DNA of 64,000 bases from Lachnospiraceae bacterium (GTDB taxonomy: Bacteria > Bacillota > Clostridia > Lachnospirales > Lachnospiraceae). The notes under the pieces were generated by a model. The model was not told the origin of the DNA. It saw only the letters and a list, made by a program, of their open reading frames with translations, and ran no database searches. Of this stretch, positions 12,961-45,649 are shown one piece after another (positions within the stretch are counted from its first letter, which is position 1; the number at the start of each line of letters is the position of its first letter). Made by a program: the position numbers and the translations under genes. The stretch is taken from the NCBI GenBank assembly GCA_017619615.1, contig JAFZRY010000007.1:1-64000 (forward strand). The letters run 5' to 3'.

Positions 12961-13002
12961 GTGACAAAGGGACGAGGTGACAAAGGGACGGTTCTTTTGT
13001 CA
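12961..13002 (+). repeat. GGGACGGTTC hairpin element, full copy plus a partial one
   Basis: A 25-base element (12978-13002) runs from TGACA to TGTCA around the core GGGACGGTTC and folds into an 11-bp stem. A truncated copy (12961-12976) precedes it. Between 12904 and 13066 I see nothing else. Confidence 0.8.
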
Positions 13003-39972: not shown

Positions 39973-41600
39973 AGATCACATTTTTAGGGGCCGATCATGA
40001 AGTGACCGGCTCCCTGACTTATTTAGAGGCCGGTGGTCACCGCATCCTGGTGGACTGCGGGATGGAGCAGGGCAAGGACATCTTCGTGAACCAGAGCCTG
40101 CCCATCGGGGCGGATCAGGTGGACGCGGTCTTCCTGACCCACGCCCATATCGACCACTCCGGCAATCTGCCGCTTCTGTACAAGCAGGGCTACCGCGGGC
40201 CGATCTACGCGACGGAAGCAACGACGAACCTGTGCCGCATCATGCTGATGGACTGCGCCGCGATCCAGGAATCCGAGGTGGAGTGGCAGAACCGCAAGAA
40301 CGACCGCGCCGGCCGCCCGGAAGTGGAGCCGCTCTACACCAAGGAGGACGCGGAGGCCGTGCTGCGCCAGTTCATCCCGCTGTCCTTCGGCGAGCGGAAA
40401 CAGGTGCAGGAGAACGTGGAGGTCCGCTTCGGCAATGCGGGGCATCTGCTGGGTGCCTCCCACATCGAACTCTGGCTGACCGAGGACGGCGTCACGAAGA
40501 AGGTCCTTTTCAGCGGCGACGTGGGCAACACGGACCGTCCGCTGATCAGTGACCCGCAGCCCGTGGAAGAGGCGGATTACGTGATCCTGGAATCCACTTA
40601 CGGCGACCGCCTGCACGAGCCGCACGAGGGGCACGAAGCCTACGTGCTGCAGCTCGCCCGCGCCATCGAACAGGTGCTGGGCCGCGGCGGCAACCTGGTG
40701 ATCCCGGCGTTCGCAGTGGGCCGCACCCAGGAGATCCTGTATTTCATCCGCCAGATCAAGGAAGAAAACATGATCCCGTCGCTGCCGCACTTCAAAGTGG
40801 TGCTGGACAGCCCGCTGGCTGTGGAAGCCACCGCGGTGTTCCAGCAGACGCCCCGGGATTATTTCAACGAGGACACGCGCGCCCTGCTGGACGAGGGCAT
40901 CAACCCGGTCTTTTTCGACGGCCTGGAACTGTCCGTCTCGTCCGAGGAATCCAAGGCCATCAACCTGGACCCGGAGCCCAAGGTCATCATCTCCGCCAGC
41001 GGCATGTGCGAGGCCGGGCGGATCCGCCATCATCTGAAGCACAACCTGTGGCGGCCGGAAAGCGCCGTGCTCTTTGTGGGCTATCAGACCGAGGGGACCC
41101 TGGGCCGCTACCTGCTGGACGGCGCCGACATGGTGAAGCTGTTCGGCGAGGAGATCTCCGTGCAGGCCGAGCTCCTGACCATGCAGGGCATCAGCGGCCA
41201 CGCGGACCGCGACGGCCTGACTGACTGGCTGAACGGCCTTGCCGCCAAACCCGAGCGCGTCTTCATCAACCACGGCGAAGCCGCGGTCTGCGACAGTTTC
41301 GCCTGGTACCTGCGCGACCAGTTCGGCTATTACACGGCGGCGCCTTACAGCGGCACCGTGTACGACCTGCTGACCGGCGAACCGCTGATCCAGACCGAGG
41401 GCATCCCGGTGGAGAAGGCGGAGAAGGGCAAGGAAGAGAAGGCCGGCAAGGCCGCCGAGCCGTCCCTGTTCAACTCCCTGCTGGCGGCCGGCGAACGCCT
41501 GCTGACGATGATCGGCGCCATGAAGGATCGCAGCAACAAGGAGATCAAGAAGATGATCTCGGAGATCGACAAGCTGATCAACAAGTATTCCAAGGAATGA
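39969..41600 (+). CDS. Beta-CASP metallo-beta-lactamase family RNA-processing nuclease
   Basis: 543 residues. The metallo-beta-lactamase part has the zinc motif THAHIDHSG (about residue 58), a later GNAGHLLGASH and SGDVGNTDRPL; a beta-CASP domain follows (AFAVGRTQEILYFIRQI, ASGMCEAGRIRHHLKHNLW), with SGHADRDGL closing the site. The family includes bacterial relatives of CPSF73; substrates are RNA by inference. The C-terminus (about 480-543) is a basic, helical extension. Start and stop both overlap neighbours by ATGA. Confidence 0.92.
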   Translation: MKITFLGADHEVTGSLTYLEAGGHRILVDCGMEQGKDIFVNQSLPIGADQVDAVFLTHAHIDHSGNLPLLYKQGYRGPIYATEATTNLCRIMLMDCAAIQESEVEWQNRKNDRAGRPEVEPLYTKEDAEAVLRQFIPLSFGERKQVQENVEVRFGNAGHLLGASHIELWLTEDGVTKKVLFSGDVGNTDRPLISDPQPVEEADYVILESTYGDRLHEPHEGHEAYVLQLARAIEQVLGRGGNLVIPAFAVGRTQEILYFIRQIKEENMIPSLPHFKVVLDSPLAVEATAVFQQTPRDYFNEDTRALLDEGINPVFFDGLELSVSSEESKAINLDPEPKVIISASGMCEAGRIRHHLKHNLWRPESAVLFVGYQTEGTLGRYLLDGADMVKLFGEEISVQAELLTMQGISGHADRDGLTDWLNGLAAKPERVFINHGEAAVCDSFAWYLRDQFGYYTAAPYSGTVYDLLTGEPLIQTEGIPVEKAEKGKEEKAGKAAEPSLFNSLLAAGERLLTMIGAMKDRSNKEIKKMISEIDKLINKYSKE

Positions 41601-42241
41601 AAACCGACTTCGACCGGAACATGCAGGATATCATCGCCGGGCTGGATCCCCAGGATCCGCCCCGGCTTTTATTGCATTCGTGCTGCGCGCCGTGCTCCAG
41701 CTCCGTACTGGAACAGCTGGCCGGCCCGTTCCGGGTAACGGTTTTGTATTACAACCCCAACATTTATCCGCGGGAGGAGTACGAATTCCGCAAAGCGGAG
41801 CAGAAAGACTTCATCCGCACGTACCCGTTCGCCTGCCCGGTGGATTTCCTGGACTGCGAGTACGAGCCCGCGCAGTTTTACGGGGCGGTGAAGGGCCTCG
41901 AGCAGGAACCGGAGCGGGGCGGCCGCTGTACGGTCTGCTACCGGCTGCGGCTGGCGCGGACGGCGCGGGAAGCGGCGGCGGGCGGCTATGATTTCTTCGC
42001 CACCACGCTGACCCTGAGCCCCCTGAAGGACGCGGTGCGCCTGAACCGCATCGGCGAAGAAGAGGCGGCGCGCCTGGCCGCGGAGCTTGGCCCTTCCGCC
42101 CCCCGCTGGCTCCCCTCGGACTTCAAAAAACGGAACGGATACCTCCGCTCCCTGGAGATCACCCGCGCCTGCGGCATGTACCGCCAGAACTACTGCGGCT
42201 GCGAATTCTCGCTGCGGGCGGGAAATAAGGACGACTTATGA
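41597..42241 (+). CDS. queH: Epoxyqueuosine reductase QueH
   Basis: 214 residues of the DUF208 family: LLHSCCAPCSS near the N-terminus, YYNPNIYPREEYEFRK, CTVCYRLRL and a CGCEFS end give the cysteine set of QueH, which reduces epoxyqueuosine in tRNA to queuosine without cobalamin. Both its start (ATGA with the nuclease gene) and its stop (ATGA with the deaminase-like gene) overlap, so translation is coupled across the unit. Confidence 0.95.
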   Translation: MKTDFDRNMQDIIAGLDPQDPPRLLLHSCCAPCSSSVLEQLAGPFRVTVLYYNPNIYPREEYEFRKAEQKDFIRTYPFACPVDFLDCEYEPAQFYGAVKGLEQEPERGGRCTVCYRLRLARTAREAAAGGYDFFATTLTLSPLKDAVRLNRIGEEEAARLAAELGPSAPRWLPSDFKKRNGYLRSLEITRACGMYRQNYCGCEFSLRAGNKDDL

Positions 42242-44697
42242 CCTATTTCGGACGATTTTATCTGGACCGCGAAAAGGACATCGCCGTGGACCTCTACCGC
42301 GACGGCGACGCCATGGAGTACCGCCTCCGCACGCCGAACCACCACAGCGGCAACCTGATCACGAACCTCGCGCGCGTCTGCCGCGCCGACCTCACCGAGG
42401 AAGAAGAAACGGGACTGAAAGTCATGACAGGCCCCGTTTTTTCCTATGTGGACGGGGAGAACCGCCAGGTCTTCATCCTGCGCCTGGGCAACACCAAGGT
42501 CGCGAACATCTACCCGGACGGCACCATCGAGCGGAAGGCCACGGTCCCGGCCATCGCCAAAACGCTGATGAGCCAGACCAAGGATTACCGCCTGGACCTG
42601 TTCCGCACGCTGGTCAAGACATACATCCTGAGCGAGTGCAAGTTCCGGACGGACCTGCACACGCACATGAACGCGATCCTGGAGCCGGACGCGCTGATCG
42701 CGCTGGGCATCGCCCACCAGATCCGGTACCCGCTGTATTACGTCAAAAAACTGGGGCTGGAGCTGACGGAAGAGCAGCAGCGGACGATGGCAGCGCGGCG
42801 CGCGCGGGCGGAGGAGTCGCTGGACCTGACGGGGCTGGAGGGCAAATACCGCGACCGGCGCATCGACGATAACTGCTTCATCAACGTGGCGAAACTGATT
42901 TTGGGCCATCCCGAGGCCGCGGAACGGAACATCGCGAAGATCCGCGCGTCGCTGGCCGTGCTGAAGGACGGCCAGGCGGTTTTTTCCAATCTGGAAAAAG
43001 TCTACCTGTACCGATATGTGTTCACGCGCGGTGTGCGCGCGGAAGATCCGATGCCGGCGGAAGCGCTGCGGGAGAAGATCACGGACATCCCGGACCCGGA
43101 TATCCGCCGCACCGCGGCGAAGATGCTGGCGGACCGGCAGAGCAAAGCGTACGGCGGCAACACGCTGTTCCAGGACAAGCTGCTCTGGATCGCGCGCAGC
43201 TATGCGGCGGCGGGCGTGCGGTACGCGGAGATCTCCGATACCGCGCTCGCGAAGGCGGACCAGGCGCCCGGCCGGCTGGCGGAGATCCACGGCGTGATGC
43301 CGGCGGCGATGCGCGAGACCGGGGTGACGCTGCGTTTCCTGGCGGGGATCCGCCGGACGCCGCTCACCATCGTGAAAGACCAGGTCGCGCCGCGCGATTA
43401 CCTGCGCGAGAACATCCGCACCCTGGAGGCCGTCGCGGAGGACCCGTATCTGGCGGGCTGCGACATCCTGGGCGAGGAGATCAATGATATTGAAGAACTT
43501 AAGCCGCTCATCGAACGGCTGACGGCGCTGGCAGGGCGGATCCCGGACTTCGTGATCCGCATCCATGCCGGTGAAAGCGACAGCCTGCGGGGCAACGTCG
43601 CGGGCAGCCTGCGCTGCGTGCGCGAGTCGCTGGCGCCGGGACAGCCCATGCCGGCCCTGCGCATCGGCCACGGTCTGTACACCTCCAACCTGAAAAGCGC
43701 CCGCGGCCAGGCGCTGCTGAAAGACCTGAAAGAAAGCGGCGCGGTGCTGGAATTCCAGATCAGTTCCAACGTGCGACTGAACAACTTAAGCCGCGTGGAG
43801 GACCACCCGCTGAAGCAGTATCTCCGCGCGGGCGTCGCCTGCGTGCAGGGGACGGACGGCGGCGCGCTGTACGGGACCAATTCCATCGACGAGGAACTGG
43901 CGCTGGAGCGCCTGCTGGGCCTGACGCCGCGTGACCTGAAGGCGATGTGCCGGGCCGAGGAACGCGTGATGCGGGCCGGCCTGGAAGCGTTCCGCACGAA
44001 AAAACAGCGCCTGGGCCGGGCGCTGAAAGGACGCGGGATCAGGGAATACTATGAAGCGCAGCTGCAGGCGGAAGGCGGGCGGCTGCTGACCATGCCGGCG
44101 GAAAAGCGCCGGACTTCGGCCGAAGTGCTGGAGGACCGGATCCGCCCGCTGCCCGCGGAGAAATTCCCGCTCATCCTGGCCGGCGGCAGCTTCAACAGCG
44201 ACCGGCGGCGCTCTGCGCTTCGGCCGGAACTGCTGGGGCTGCTGGACGACCTGCTGGCGCGGCTCAACCCGCAGAAAACGTACTTCGTCATCGGCCACAA
44301 ACTGAGCGCTTACGAAAAAGCGTTGGTAGAGAAAAACGCCGGCCGCTTCGAGATCTTCGCGGTCGTGCCCACGCTGCTGACGCCGCGCGAGGCCGCGGCC
44401 CTGCGGCGCTCCGGCGTCTCGGTCCGGCTGTCCATCGAGCCCTACGGCCTCGGCCTTTACAAAAGCATCGCCTACGAGATCTTCAAGAACCGCGCCTCCG
44501 TCCTGCTCGCCCTGGACGGCAACGCCGCCGGCGCCAACCTGATCCAGGAAGCCAAAAACGCGCGCGTGAAATGCCATATTTTCGTCAGCCGCACCTCCCG
44601 CGGCCTCCGCGAAAAGACGCGCTCCCTCGAAGGGTACATCCGTTTATTCGATCCCGCGGAGGATATCGTTCCGGAAATCGCCGCCCTCATCAAATGA
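42238..44697 (+). CDS. Adenosine-deaminase-like protein with N-terminal and C-terminal extra domains
   Basis: 819 residues. Residues 1-130 are a beta-rich domain I do not recognise. The middle is a divergent adenosine/AMP deaminase barrel: H141-T-H143 (metal), H443-A-G-E446, H478 in RIGHG and D540 in TDGG. The usual second aspartate of TDD is a glycine. About 300 residues separate HTH from HAGE, roughly 100 more than in plain deaminases. The C-terminal part (about 640-819) has a Rossmann-like pattern (LILAGGSFN, YFVIGHKL, ALDGNAAGANLI) suggesting a SLOG- or TIR-like nucleotide-binding fold. Function unknown; a nucleotide or tRNA-base deaminase is inference. ATGA-coupled to queH. Confidence 0.8.
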   Translation: MTYFGRFYLDREKDIAVDLYRDGDAMEYRLRTPNHHSGNLITNLARVCRADLTEEEETGLKVMTGPVFSYVDGENRQVFILRLGNTKVANIYPDGTIERKATVPAIAKTLMSQTKDYRLDLFRTLVKTYILSECKFRTDLHTHMNAILEPDALIALGIAHQIRYPLYYVKKLGLELTEEQQRTMAARRARAEESLDLTGLEGKYRDRRIDDNCFINVAKLILGHPEAAERNIAKIRASLAVLKDGQAVFSNLEKVYLYRYVFTRGVRAEDPMPAEALREKITDIPDPDIRRTAAKMLADRQSKAYGGNTLFQDKLLWIARSYAAAGVRYAEISDTALAKADQAPGRLAEIHGVMPAAMRETGVTLRFLAGIRRTPLTIVKDQVAPRDYLRENIRTLEAVAEDPYLAGCDILGEEINDIEELKPLIERLTALAGRIPDFVIRIHAGESDSLRGNVAGSLRCVRESLAPGQPMPALRIGHGLYTSNLKSARGQALLKDLKESGAVLEFQISSNVRLNNLSRVEDHPLKQYLRAGVACVQGTDGGALYGTNSIDEELALERLLGLTPRDLKAMCRAEERVMRAGLEAFRTKKQRLGRALKGRGIREYYEAQLQAEGGRLLTMPAEKRRTSAEVLEDRIRPLPAEKFPLILAGGSFNSDRRRSALRPELLGLLDDLLARLNPQKTYFVIGHKLSAYEKALVEKNAGRFEIFAVVPTLLTPREAAALRRSGVSVRLSIEPYGLGLYKSIAYEIFKNRASVLLALDGNAAGANLIQEAKNARVKCHIFVSRTSRGLREKTRSLEGYIRLFDPAEDIVPEIAALIK

Positions 44698-44706
44698 GGC
44701 CGCTGA

Positions 44707-44753
44707 GGGACGGTTCTTCCTGGCACTGCCACCAGGAACCGTCCCCAGTGGCA
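44707..44753. repeat. GGGACGGTTC element, TGGCACT-ended variant
   Basis: Two readings overlap: GGGACGGTTC...CCTGG with CCAGGAACCGTCCC (44707-44745), and a reverse copy with ends TGGCACT/AGTGGCA (44721-44753). Confidence 0.7.
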
Positions 44754-44768
44754 CCGTTTGACGAATCA

Positions 44769-44807
44769 AAAAACCTGACAAAGGAACCATCCTTCTGTCA
44801 GGTTTTT
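44769..44807. terminator. GGGACGGTTC-type element acting as a bidirectional terminator
   Basis: AAAAACCTGACA (44769-44780) pairs perfectly with TGTCAGGTTTTT (44796-44807), with AAGGA/TCCTT inside. A-run before and T-run after make it a terminator for both converging genes. Confidence 0.82.
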
Positions 44808-44828: not shown

Positions 44829-45353
44829 TTATTCGTCCTGCAGCAGGGTGTGCATGATGTGGCTGTAGATCTCCTGGCTGGAGGACTGCCAGCGGTCGCA
44901 GATGATGCGGGCCTGCTCTTCGCTGGGGACGGAGAGGAGGAGTTTCAGGAGCTGTACTTTGCCTTCGCGGACTTCGCAGGTGACTTCGTAGTCCGTGCCG
45001 GCGGTCTTGCGGTAGTCCGCGGTGATGCCCATTTCGTTGCGGAGGCGGATCTTATGTTTCTTCAGGAAGGCGTGGATGTCTTCCTTGATGGCGTCCGGGA
45101 TATCGCTGCCGAAGAAACTCAGCGTCTCCTCGCCCTCGCGGGTGATCTCATAACGCTGGGATCCGCGCACGGTGGTCACTTTGATGAGGTGCGCATCCAG
45201 CAGTTCGCTGACGCCCTGCTGCAGGGTCATGTAGTTGGTGTATTCCGTAGTCAGGAAAAATTCGGAGATCTGTTCGTTGCTGATGGGCAGATTGGCCTGC
45301 TGCAGCAGGTAGAGAACCATCAGTTTGTATAATACCTGCGGGTCGCTGATCAT
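44829..45353 (-). CDS. DUF4364 family protein
   Basis: 174 residues. The N-terminal half looks like a winged helix (MISDPQVLYKLMVLYLLQQ, NEQISEFFLTTEYTNYMTLQQGVSELLDAHLIKV), followed by an alpha-beta domain. The DUF4364 family is widespread in Clostridia and is treated as a probable regulator; no target is known to me. ATG at 45353 follows GGGGAGG; the longer start at 45386 lies on a TAAAAT-like -10 box. Confidence 0.87.
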   Translation of the reverse strand: MISDPQVLYKLMVLYLLQQANLPISNEQISEFFLTTEYTNYMTLQQGVSELLDAHLIKVTTVRGSQRYEITREGEETLSFFGSDIPDAIKEDIHAFLKKHKIRLRNEMGITADYRKTAGTDYEVTCEVREGKVQLLKLLLSVPSEEQARIICDRWQSSSQEIYSHIMHTLLQDE

Positions 45354-45649
45354 GGCGCGTTCCTCCCCCCGTGTTATTCCGTCCATATTTTACCAAGCCG
45401 CGCAAAAAAAAGCAATAAAATGTCCGCTTTCTTCCGTCTTCCTCTTGCAATTTTTGAAAAAATGGTTTAGTCTTTTGCTGAAGACAGAACGTGCATGGGG
45501 GAGACCTCTATTTCTCATTGTTTTTTCATCTGTCTTTTCCCCTGATTTTCCAGACGAACCTTACACTTTTTTCCATATGAGATCATTATATTTCCCGGAT
45601 AATACTGGTTGGGAACGACAGGCGGCGGAGCCCGCGGAGGTGCAGCAGT
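45354..45649 (+). other. Intergenic leader region of rho
   Basis: It holds divergent promoter sequence (TTGCAA near 45445 on the + strand, with only weak -10 matches), then about 150 T-rich bases with no ORF. rho is often self-controlled by early termination in its own leader; the low-structure, C/T-rich stretch fits that, but I cannot mark a site. Confidence 0.4.

Follow-up and report, generated by a model that had tools for sequence, protein, structure and literature searches.

The window analysed here is a 64,000-nucleotide stretch of a Lachnospiraceae genome (contig JAFZRY010000007.1, positions 1 to 64,000), and our subject is one gene within it, at 42238-44697. This open reading frame (ORF) is genuine and belongs to a conserved family. 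Its product joins an adenosine deaminase (ADA)-type barrel to a C-terminal domain whose best interpretation is a derived SLOG domain, in which the glycine loops would have changed to IGH and DGNAAGAN. As a tentative reading, we propose that the protein is a stand-alone, ligand-gated purine-nucleotide deaminase, likeliest used as a single-gene anti-phage effector. The family was defined by a pattern scan of GTDB contigs, which gave 248 stretches encoding a relative at E ≤1e-3, possibly including matches to the ADA part only. We fetched the best 80 of these 248 stretches (52-97% identity) and aligned them with the window protein and four further sequences (L010-L013), giving an alignment of 85 rows (A1; row L026 is cut at 761 residues).

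The window protein matches Pfam A_deaminase above the cut-off (residues 319-570, E 2.1e-15), with the HxH, HAGE, GH and TD metal site that marks the adenosine deaminase superfamily; the NCBIfam ADA models score far under their cut-offs. An earlier reading of this DNA made from the letters alone (the sequence-only reading) had described the metal site as kept, and the alignment bears this out: H141, H143, H443, E446 and H478 are unchanged in 85/85 rows and D540 in 84/85, so that none of the 85 homologues has lost any of the five invariant residues and D540 fails once. Judged by these residues, the window protein is very probably catalytically competent. The sole D540 exception, L052 (6934-9408), reads TGG; its Gly may be a sequencing error or mark an inactive copy.

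Two positions near the active site set the family apart from ordinary adenosine deaminases. We compared it with ADA-family ORFs of related bacteria, for which 39 loci were examined and 36 yielded a motif-bearing ORF (L018, L175 and L178 yielded none). The residue after HxH, position 145, is N in 77/85 and S in 8/85 family rows; the equivalent position in the ADA-family ORFs is acidic throughout (D in 18/36, E in 18/36). The second Asp of the TDD motif is Gly (G541) in 85/85 rows, as the sequence-only reading had noticed in the window protein. According to the excerpts available of PMC12669630, Asp19 of mouse ADA contacts the 5′ and 3′ hydroxyls of the ribose, and substitution of its Asp296 greatly weakens both substrate binding and catalysis (EMBO J.). 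The same excerpts report that TaqCad1, which has Gly and Asn in place of Asp19 and Asp296, converts ATP and hardly adenosine, and that no enzyme accepting ATP was obtained when both Asp residues were restored in it. The counterparts of both residues are gone in all 85 rows of our family, with replacement letters (Asn/Ser and Gly) unlike those of TaqCad1 (Gly and Asn). Loss of both contacts, as in this ATP deaminase, points to a 5′-phosphorylated substrate, and from the residues at these sites we think that the substrate is probably a phosphorylated nucleotide. Nine basic residues tabulated in the deaminase part (K171, R207, K243, R259, R366, R372, R373, R475 and R513) are invariant in 85/85 rows and would suit phosphate binding.

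The barrel is interrupted by a large insertion. The distance from HxH to HAGE is 300 residues in the window protein and 294-316 (median 296) across the 85 rows, compared with 172-191 (median 182) in the 36 ADA-family ORFs. From these spacings we estimate the insertion at ~115 residues, close to the ~100 residues that had been read from the sequence. The spacing from the His of HAGE to the next ligand His is 35 in the window protein versus a median of 24 in the ADA-family ORFs. The N-terminal domain had been called unknown at first sight, and Pfam, PADLOC and PDB give it no confident name either. A profile of this domain found one PDB chain only (E 0.94), with nothing usable and no CARF domain. 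A weak PADLOC match to REase_II, a model of type II restriction enzymes (residues 19-149, 42238-42700; E 0.0079), is missing from the PADLOC lists of relatives L037, L071 and L111, so this match is probably due to chance.

The layout resembles that of RdrB from the RADAR system, as the sequence-only reading had remarked. In the excerpts available of PMC9994260, RdrB likewise has the ADA-family metal site (H152/H154, H498, E501 and H530), with extra N-terminal sequence ahead of HxH and a large insertion separating HxH from the following His; the successive ligand spacings are 344, 3 and 32 in RdrB and 300, 3 and 35 in the window protein. The N-terminal extension and the insertion dividing the core join the RdrB subunits, and a third insertion follows the last His (PMC9994260). 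The window protein differs in that no large insertion is seen after its last His and that a C-terminal SLOG-type domain is present. RADAR is further marked by a dodecameric shell and ATP-to-ITP activity. The likeness thus holds for layout and fails for membership of RADAR, which we rejected since the adjoining genes are queH and a DUF4364 gene and not rdrA. Among family loci in general no neighbour cluster recurs beyond 11 of 81; the PADLOC scan of neighbours adds little on this point, because it omitted proteins of more than 900 residues, the size of RdrA. For the window protein itself, PADLOC at E values up to 10 returned only CARF_ADA and the weak REase_II match, and the PDB searches listed no RdrB chain, although both collections should include RdrB; no direct comparison with an RdrB sequence was made.

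The C-terminal domain is conserved, with 15 positions at ≥99% family identity, and the linker before it is variable. Sequence and profile searches with the C-domain of the window protein gave no direct match in Pfam or PDB. A distant relative, L111 (865-3216), supplied a bridge. This is a 783-residue deaminase-SLOG protein with a short insertion (HxH-to-HAGE distance 214) and better-kept glycine loops; it shares the deaminase part (32% identity, residues 317-695), and its N-terminus matches our N-domain weakly (score 24.0, shuffle maximum 20.6). A profile of the family C-domain (A4) aligned with the L111 C-domain over 172 columns at an hhalign score of 54.0, compared with 21.9 for the best of 60 shuffles and 29.0 for the highest-scoring of 228 other proteins (N-terminal 400 residues of each). 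The L111 C-domain in turn matched the SLOG region of a further protein, L139, by BLASTP (35.0 bits, against 21.9 for the top-scoring of 200 shuffles) and Pfam LSDAT_prok weakly (E 0.0069, 16.1 bits, under the 25.4 cut-off), and L139 matched LSDAT_prok at 25.0 bits alone and at 27.3, above the cut-off, when neighbouring stretches were included. The L111 C-domain has the loops VTGGTNHGVEKEA and AIGGGPIVSDMIQRA, which we take to resemble SLOG loops. On this chain from family profile to L111, L139 and LSDAT_prok we take the C-domain to be a derived SLOG domain. It had first been described as SLOG- or TIR-like; the SLOG half of that description is supported by the homology chain and there is no sign of TIR, nor did any other fold match that would suggest a domain unconnected with nucleotides. 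A search of 98 genomes from the family to which L111 belongs turned up no L111-like protein besides L111 itself. L139 (961-2988) is a SLOG protein that may be a conflict gene, and its C-terminus resembles a RyR domain.

Two enzymes of known defence systems are useful comparisons. Like Cad1 (CARF-ADA), the window protein fuses an ADA domain to a Rossmann-type domain and replaces both Asp residues that contact the substrate in mouse ADA (PMC12669630, excerpts); Cad1 differs in having the reverse domain order and a CARF domain where the window protein has SLOG. A PDB search with the single sequence returned ADAs and the CARF-ADA chain 9ebt at E 0.0035. PADLOC CARF_ADA matches residues 138-559 over profile positions 261-559, which is the deaminase part, and says little on Cad1 because the same model (PDLC01908) matches ADA-family ORFs of ~350 residues far better (E down to 2.3e-62). 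Pfam finds no CARF domain in the window protein. The Cas10 model Csm1 TIGR02578, the only one tried, is above its cut-off in 0/16 draft genomes of the genus, with weak matches in 7/16 that are limited to profile positions 4-120. Given the missing CARF match, the unspecific PADLOC model and the Csm1 result, we rejected kinship with Cad1. The Thoeris protein ThsA (SIR2-SLOG) also joins an enzyme to a SLOG domain, which serves there as sensor in the available excerpts of PMC11204291; ThsA has SIR2 where the window protein has a deaminase, and no TIR partner lies beside the gene in the window.

The family is scattered. By record title, the 80 relatives and the window comprise 69 Bacillota and 12 Actinomycetota, and 68/80 relatives come from projects with ruminant-gut titles (by a name list that includes run codes of unchecked source). 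Two carriers, Lachnospiraceae FE2018 and AC2012 (L071 and L098), seem to be isolates. At E 1e-3, 23 of 98 relatives have a match: 9 to the deaminase part only and 14 to this family, of which 10, counting the own genome, belong to the genus and 4 lie beyond it. In a sample of the class 8/291 match at 1e-30, among them the distant L111 as well as the own genome, and in a sample of the phylum 2/299 at 1e-20, own genome included. Plasmids gave one distant ADA gene only. A tree built by a quick method with the mixture option off, which carried a long-branch warning and left out L010-L013 before building, needs just one phylum change among 81 rows; rampant transfer between phyla was therefore discarded as an explanation.

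Within lineages the gene does change place. It is present in 10/16 genomes of the genus and directly follows queH in 9 of them. In five of the six genomes without it, queH adjoins the DUF4364 gene; in the sixth, G002, the arrangement could not be assessed. Genome G003 has the gene (58% identical) at another site, and a different ORF fills its queH-DUF4364 slot (L121:881-1480), which by eye reads like a pyroglutamyl-peptidase. Flank sharing was counted over the 76/81 loci that have at least four flanking ORFs. For 10 of the 12 Actinomycetota loci (L046 and L057 fall outside the set, which needs enough flank) the gene copies are 80-88% identical, and only 5/45 pairs have any neighbour in common within 5 kb. 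In L055 and L063 the gene is preceded by what we recognised by eye as a K+-transport-like locus. When this locus was sought in 10 Actinomycetota genomes, 6 matched, two of them the sources of L055 and L063; G813, G814 and G819 keep the locus without the gene and carry the gene elsewhere, and in G820 a single gene of the locus matched (54%). The sequence that follows the locus differs between genomes. Closer groups retain the site, for example L072, L073, L075 and L083. From the empty sites and the differing sites in near relatives we conclude that this is a lone gene that relocates, mostly within lineages.

In the mechanism we favour, the C-terminal SLOG domain would bind a nucleotide signal or metabolite, and ligand binding there would open the ADA-type barrel. 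The barrel would then deaminate a 5′-phosphorylated adenine nucleotide to the inosine form, with ATP or dATP the likeliest substrate and AMP possible, and the N-domain and barrel insertion may build an oligomer. That the SLOG domain gates the deaminase we consider somewhat favoured. The likeliest use would be as a single-gene conflict effector, spoiling nucleotide pools in the manner of RADAR and Cad1. A defence role, taken by itself, is plausible and short of probable; it would fit the patchy distribution, the mobility, the ThsA-like combination of enzyme and SLOG domain (PMC11204291, excerpts) and the Cad1-like changes of the active site.

Several results weigh against this proposal. The family is strongly conserved (mean column identity in A1 60%); RdrB proteins share 24-28% identity within their conserved part (PMC9994260, excerpts). 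There are 0 matches in 50,697 phage records, and viral contigs, examined by pattern scans of limited power, yielded no copy of the family or of an L111-like gene. No defence-gene enrichment is seen nearby, neighbours being hardly richer than farther genes: PADLOC families at E 1e-10 number 28 among 114 immediate neighbours versus 22 among 114 genes six to seven places off. These sets took one protein of 100-900 residues per cluster and excluded the window's rows (114/153 near, 114/176 far), and the PADLOC and Pfam tallies list at most 25 families each. No recurring partner was found, the commonest neighbour cluster occurring in 11/81 loci at no fixed distance; neighbours came from a simple longest-ORF caller, some of whose ORFs are spurious, and L048 is missing from the neighbour tables. 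TIR genes occur in 13/16 genus genomes and are absent from the carriers G001 and G007, so their presence does not track the gene and we rejected a TIR signal-maker as its partner. In one member of the genus, G008, three successive TIR-domain matches lie in open frames of 850-1209 residues (C37:56578-63200). The SLOG link rests on a two-step chain, from A4 to L111 to L139, and is transitive because A4 and L139, compared directly, give no significant score and family members L105 and L108 also give no Pfam SLOG match. Chain 9ebt drops out of the PDB list when the family profile is used. Loss of the second Asp alone means little, because at least 13/36 ADA-family ORFs read [ST]DN and so have no such Asp either; the [ST]D pattern was misplaced or absent in 14/36, and the readings used were 13 [ST]DN and 9 [ST]DD.

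A metabolic role, which we regard as possible although we lean away from it, would draw on several of these same results. The protein would be a deaminase converting AMP, dAMP or N6-modified AMP to IMP under allosteric control by SLOG, serving purine use in the gut and spreading as a niche gene. The strong conservation, the place beside queH in 9/16 genus genomes and the lack of PADLOC enrichment would all suit it, and of the 130 Pfam families among the 114 neighbours, most of the 25 listed are metabolic or housekeeping and none recurs. No other ADA match is found in 6/10 genus carriers, and G009, where the gene is broken across two contigs, has no match whatever. The Asn after HxH is, we presume, reminiscent of N6-methyl-AMP deaminases. 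What speaks against this role is that a separate ADA does occur in 3/16 genus genomes, all of them among the 10 carriers, that no purine gene recurs as a neighbour and that enzymes of core pathways would seldom occupy such scattered single-gene sites. A plain adenosine deaminase with added parts would explain the Pfam match and the intact metal site; single-domain ADAs have the same barrel. They differ from the family by their acidic contact after HxH, which is lost here in 85/85 rows along with the second Asp (TDG in its place), and by the absence of the ~115-residue insertion and the two extra domains, and we regard this explanation as hardly probable at all.

Two further alternatives give the SLOG domain a different task. 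It might capture a nucleotide messenger or alarmone that the barrel then deaminates, switching the signal off. Both kinds of domain bind adenine nucleotides, and an unusual substrate would fit the changed contacts to ribose and base; with no neighbour cluster beyond 11/81 loci no messenger-making enzyme regularly adjoins the gene, TIR presence does not follow it, and we consider such signal degradation improbable. Finally, the SLOG domain could itself cleave a glycosidic bond in a two-step salvage enzyme. LOG enzymes have the SLOG fold, and this kinship and the 15 nearly invariant C-domain positions would fit such an activity. The LOG motif, PGGxGTxxE, is not seen in the C-domain, where the consensus loop is DGNSAGANLIQEA; LOG-type catalysis was therefore judged unlikely and the two-step enzyme, as a whole, strikes us as highly improbable.

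Bacterial ATP-to-ITP deaminases appear in the excerpts cited above in two defence settings, and both depend on a partner (RdrA in one, a Cas10 signal received through CARF in the other). A nucleotide deaminase of the ADA fold with a sensor domain is a known kind of protein; the combination of deaminase and SLOG was not met in the open-licence literature matches listed, where neither the titles nor the opening words of the abstracts mention such a fusion. It is a more doubtful step to see the family as a partner-free, single-gene immune effector whose SLOG domain senses a nucleotide signal and turns on deamination of ATP or dATP. Inosine-nucleotide poisoning would then have a third, independent route beside RADAR and Cad1, passed between gut Bacillota and Actinomycetota as a naked gene; we think this rather unlikely. 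If it were true, a partner-free SLOG family with Cad1-like contact losses would show how such an effector acts alone, and the window family would offer a ready, testable enzyme. If the role is metabolic instead, the family would be a SLOG-controlled nucleotide deaminase spreading as a single gene.

Table 1. Positions of the gene, its parts and adjoining features in the window
Feature	Coordinates	Strand	Basis
Whole gene	42238..44697	+	819-residue ORF, family alignment A1
N-terminal domain, residues 1-134	42238..42639	+	Family-conserved, mean majority-residue share 0.75
First barrel strand, TDLHTHMN, ligands H141 and H143, N145	42640..42753	+	Family alignment, comparison with ADA-family ORFs
Insertion-bearing stretch (~115 extra residues), residues 173-310; R207, K243 and R259 invariant	42754..43167	+	Alignment, spacing
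Remaining deaminase barrel, residues 311-575; R372-R373, G412-E413-E414, H443, E446, H478, D540, G541	43168..43962	+	Pfam, alignment
Variable linker, residues 576-635	43963..44142	+	Mean majority-residue share 0.37
C-terminal domain, putative derived SLOG, residues 636-819	44143..44694	+	GGSFN loop, IGH..YE, LYKS..YEIF, DGNAAGAN..QEA
queH (epoxyqueuosine reductase)	41597..42241	+	Pfam QueH in scanned copy from a near relative
DUF4364 gene, convergent; adjoins queH in five of the six genus genomes without the gene	44829..45386	-	Pfam DUF4364 in a near relative's copy
Dispersed palindromic repeat immediately 3′ of the gene	44707..44792		Pattern counts in window and genome

The surrounding genes, named by eye, are thrS, trpS, a metallo-beta-lactamase RNase, queH, the DUF4364 gene, rho and rpoB/rpoC; Pfam backs the RNase-like, QueH and DUF4364 types in scanned copies from near relatives. 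The stop of queH and the start of the gene overlap by 4 bases. The repeat that follows the gene resembles repetitive extragenic palindromic (REP) elements. Its core, CTGACAAAGGAACCRTCC, occurs in 8 copies in the window at ≤3 mismatches (expected 0.07), the others lying at 12986, 25028, 35840, 35881, 38164, 59899 and 59941, and in 50 copies genome-wide at ≤1 mismatch, compared with 0 for a reversed control.

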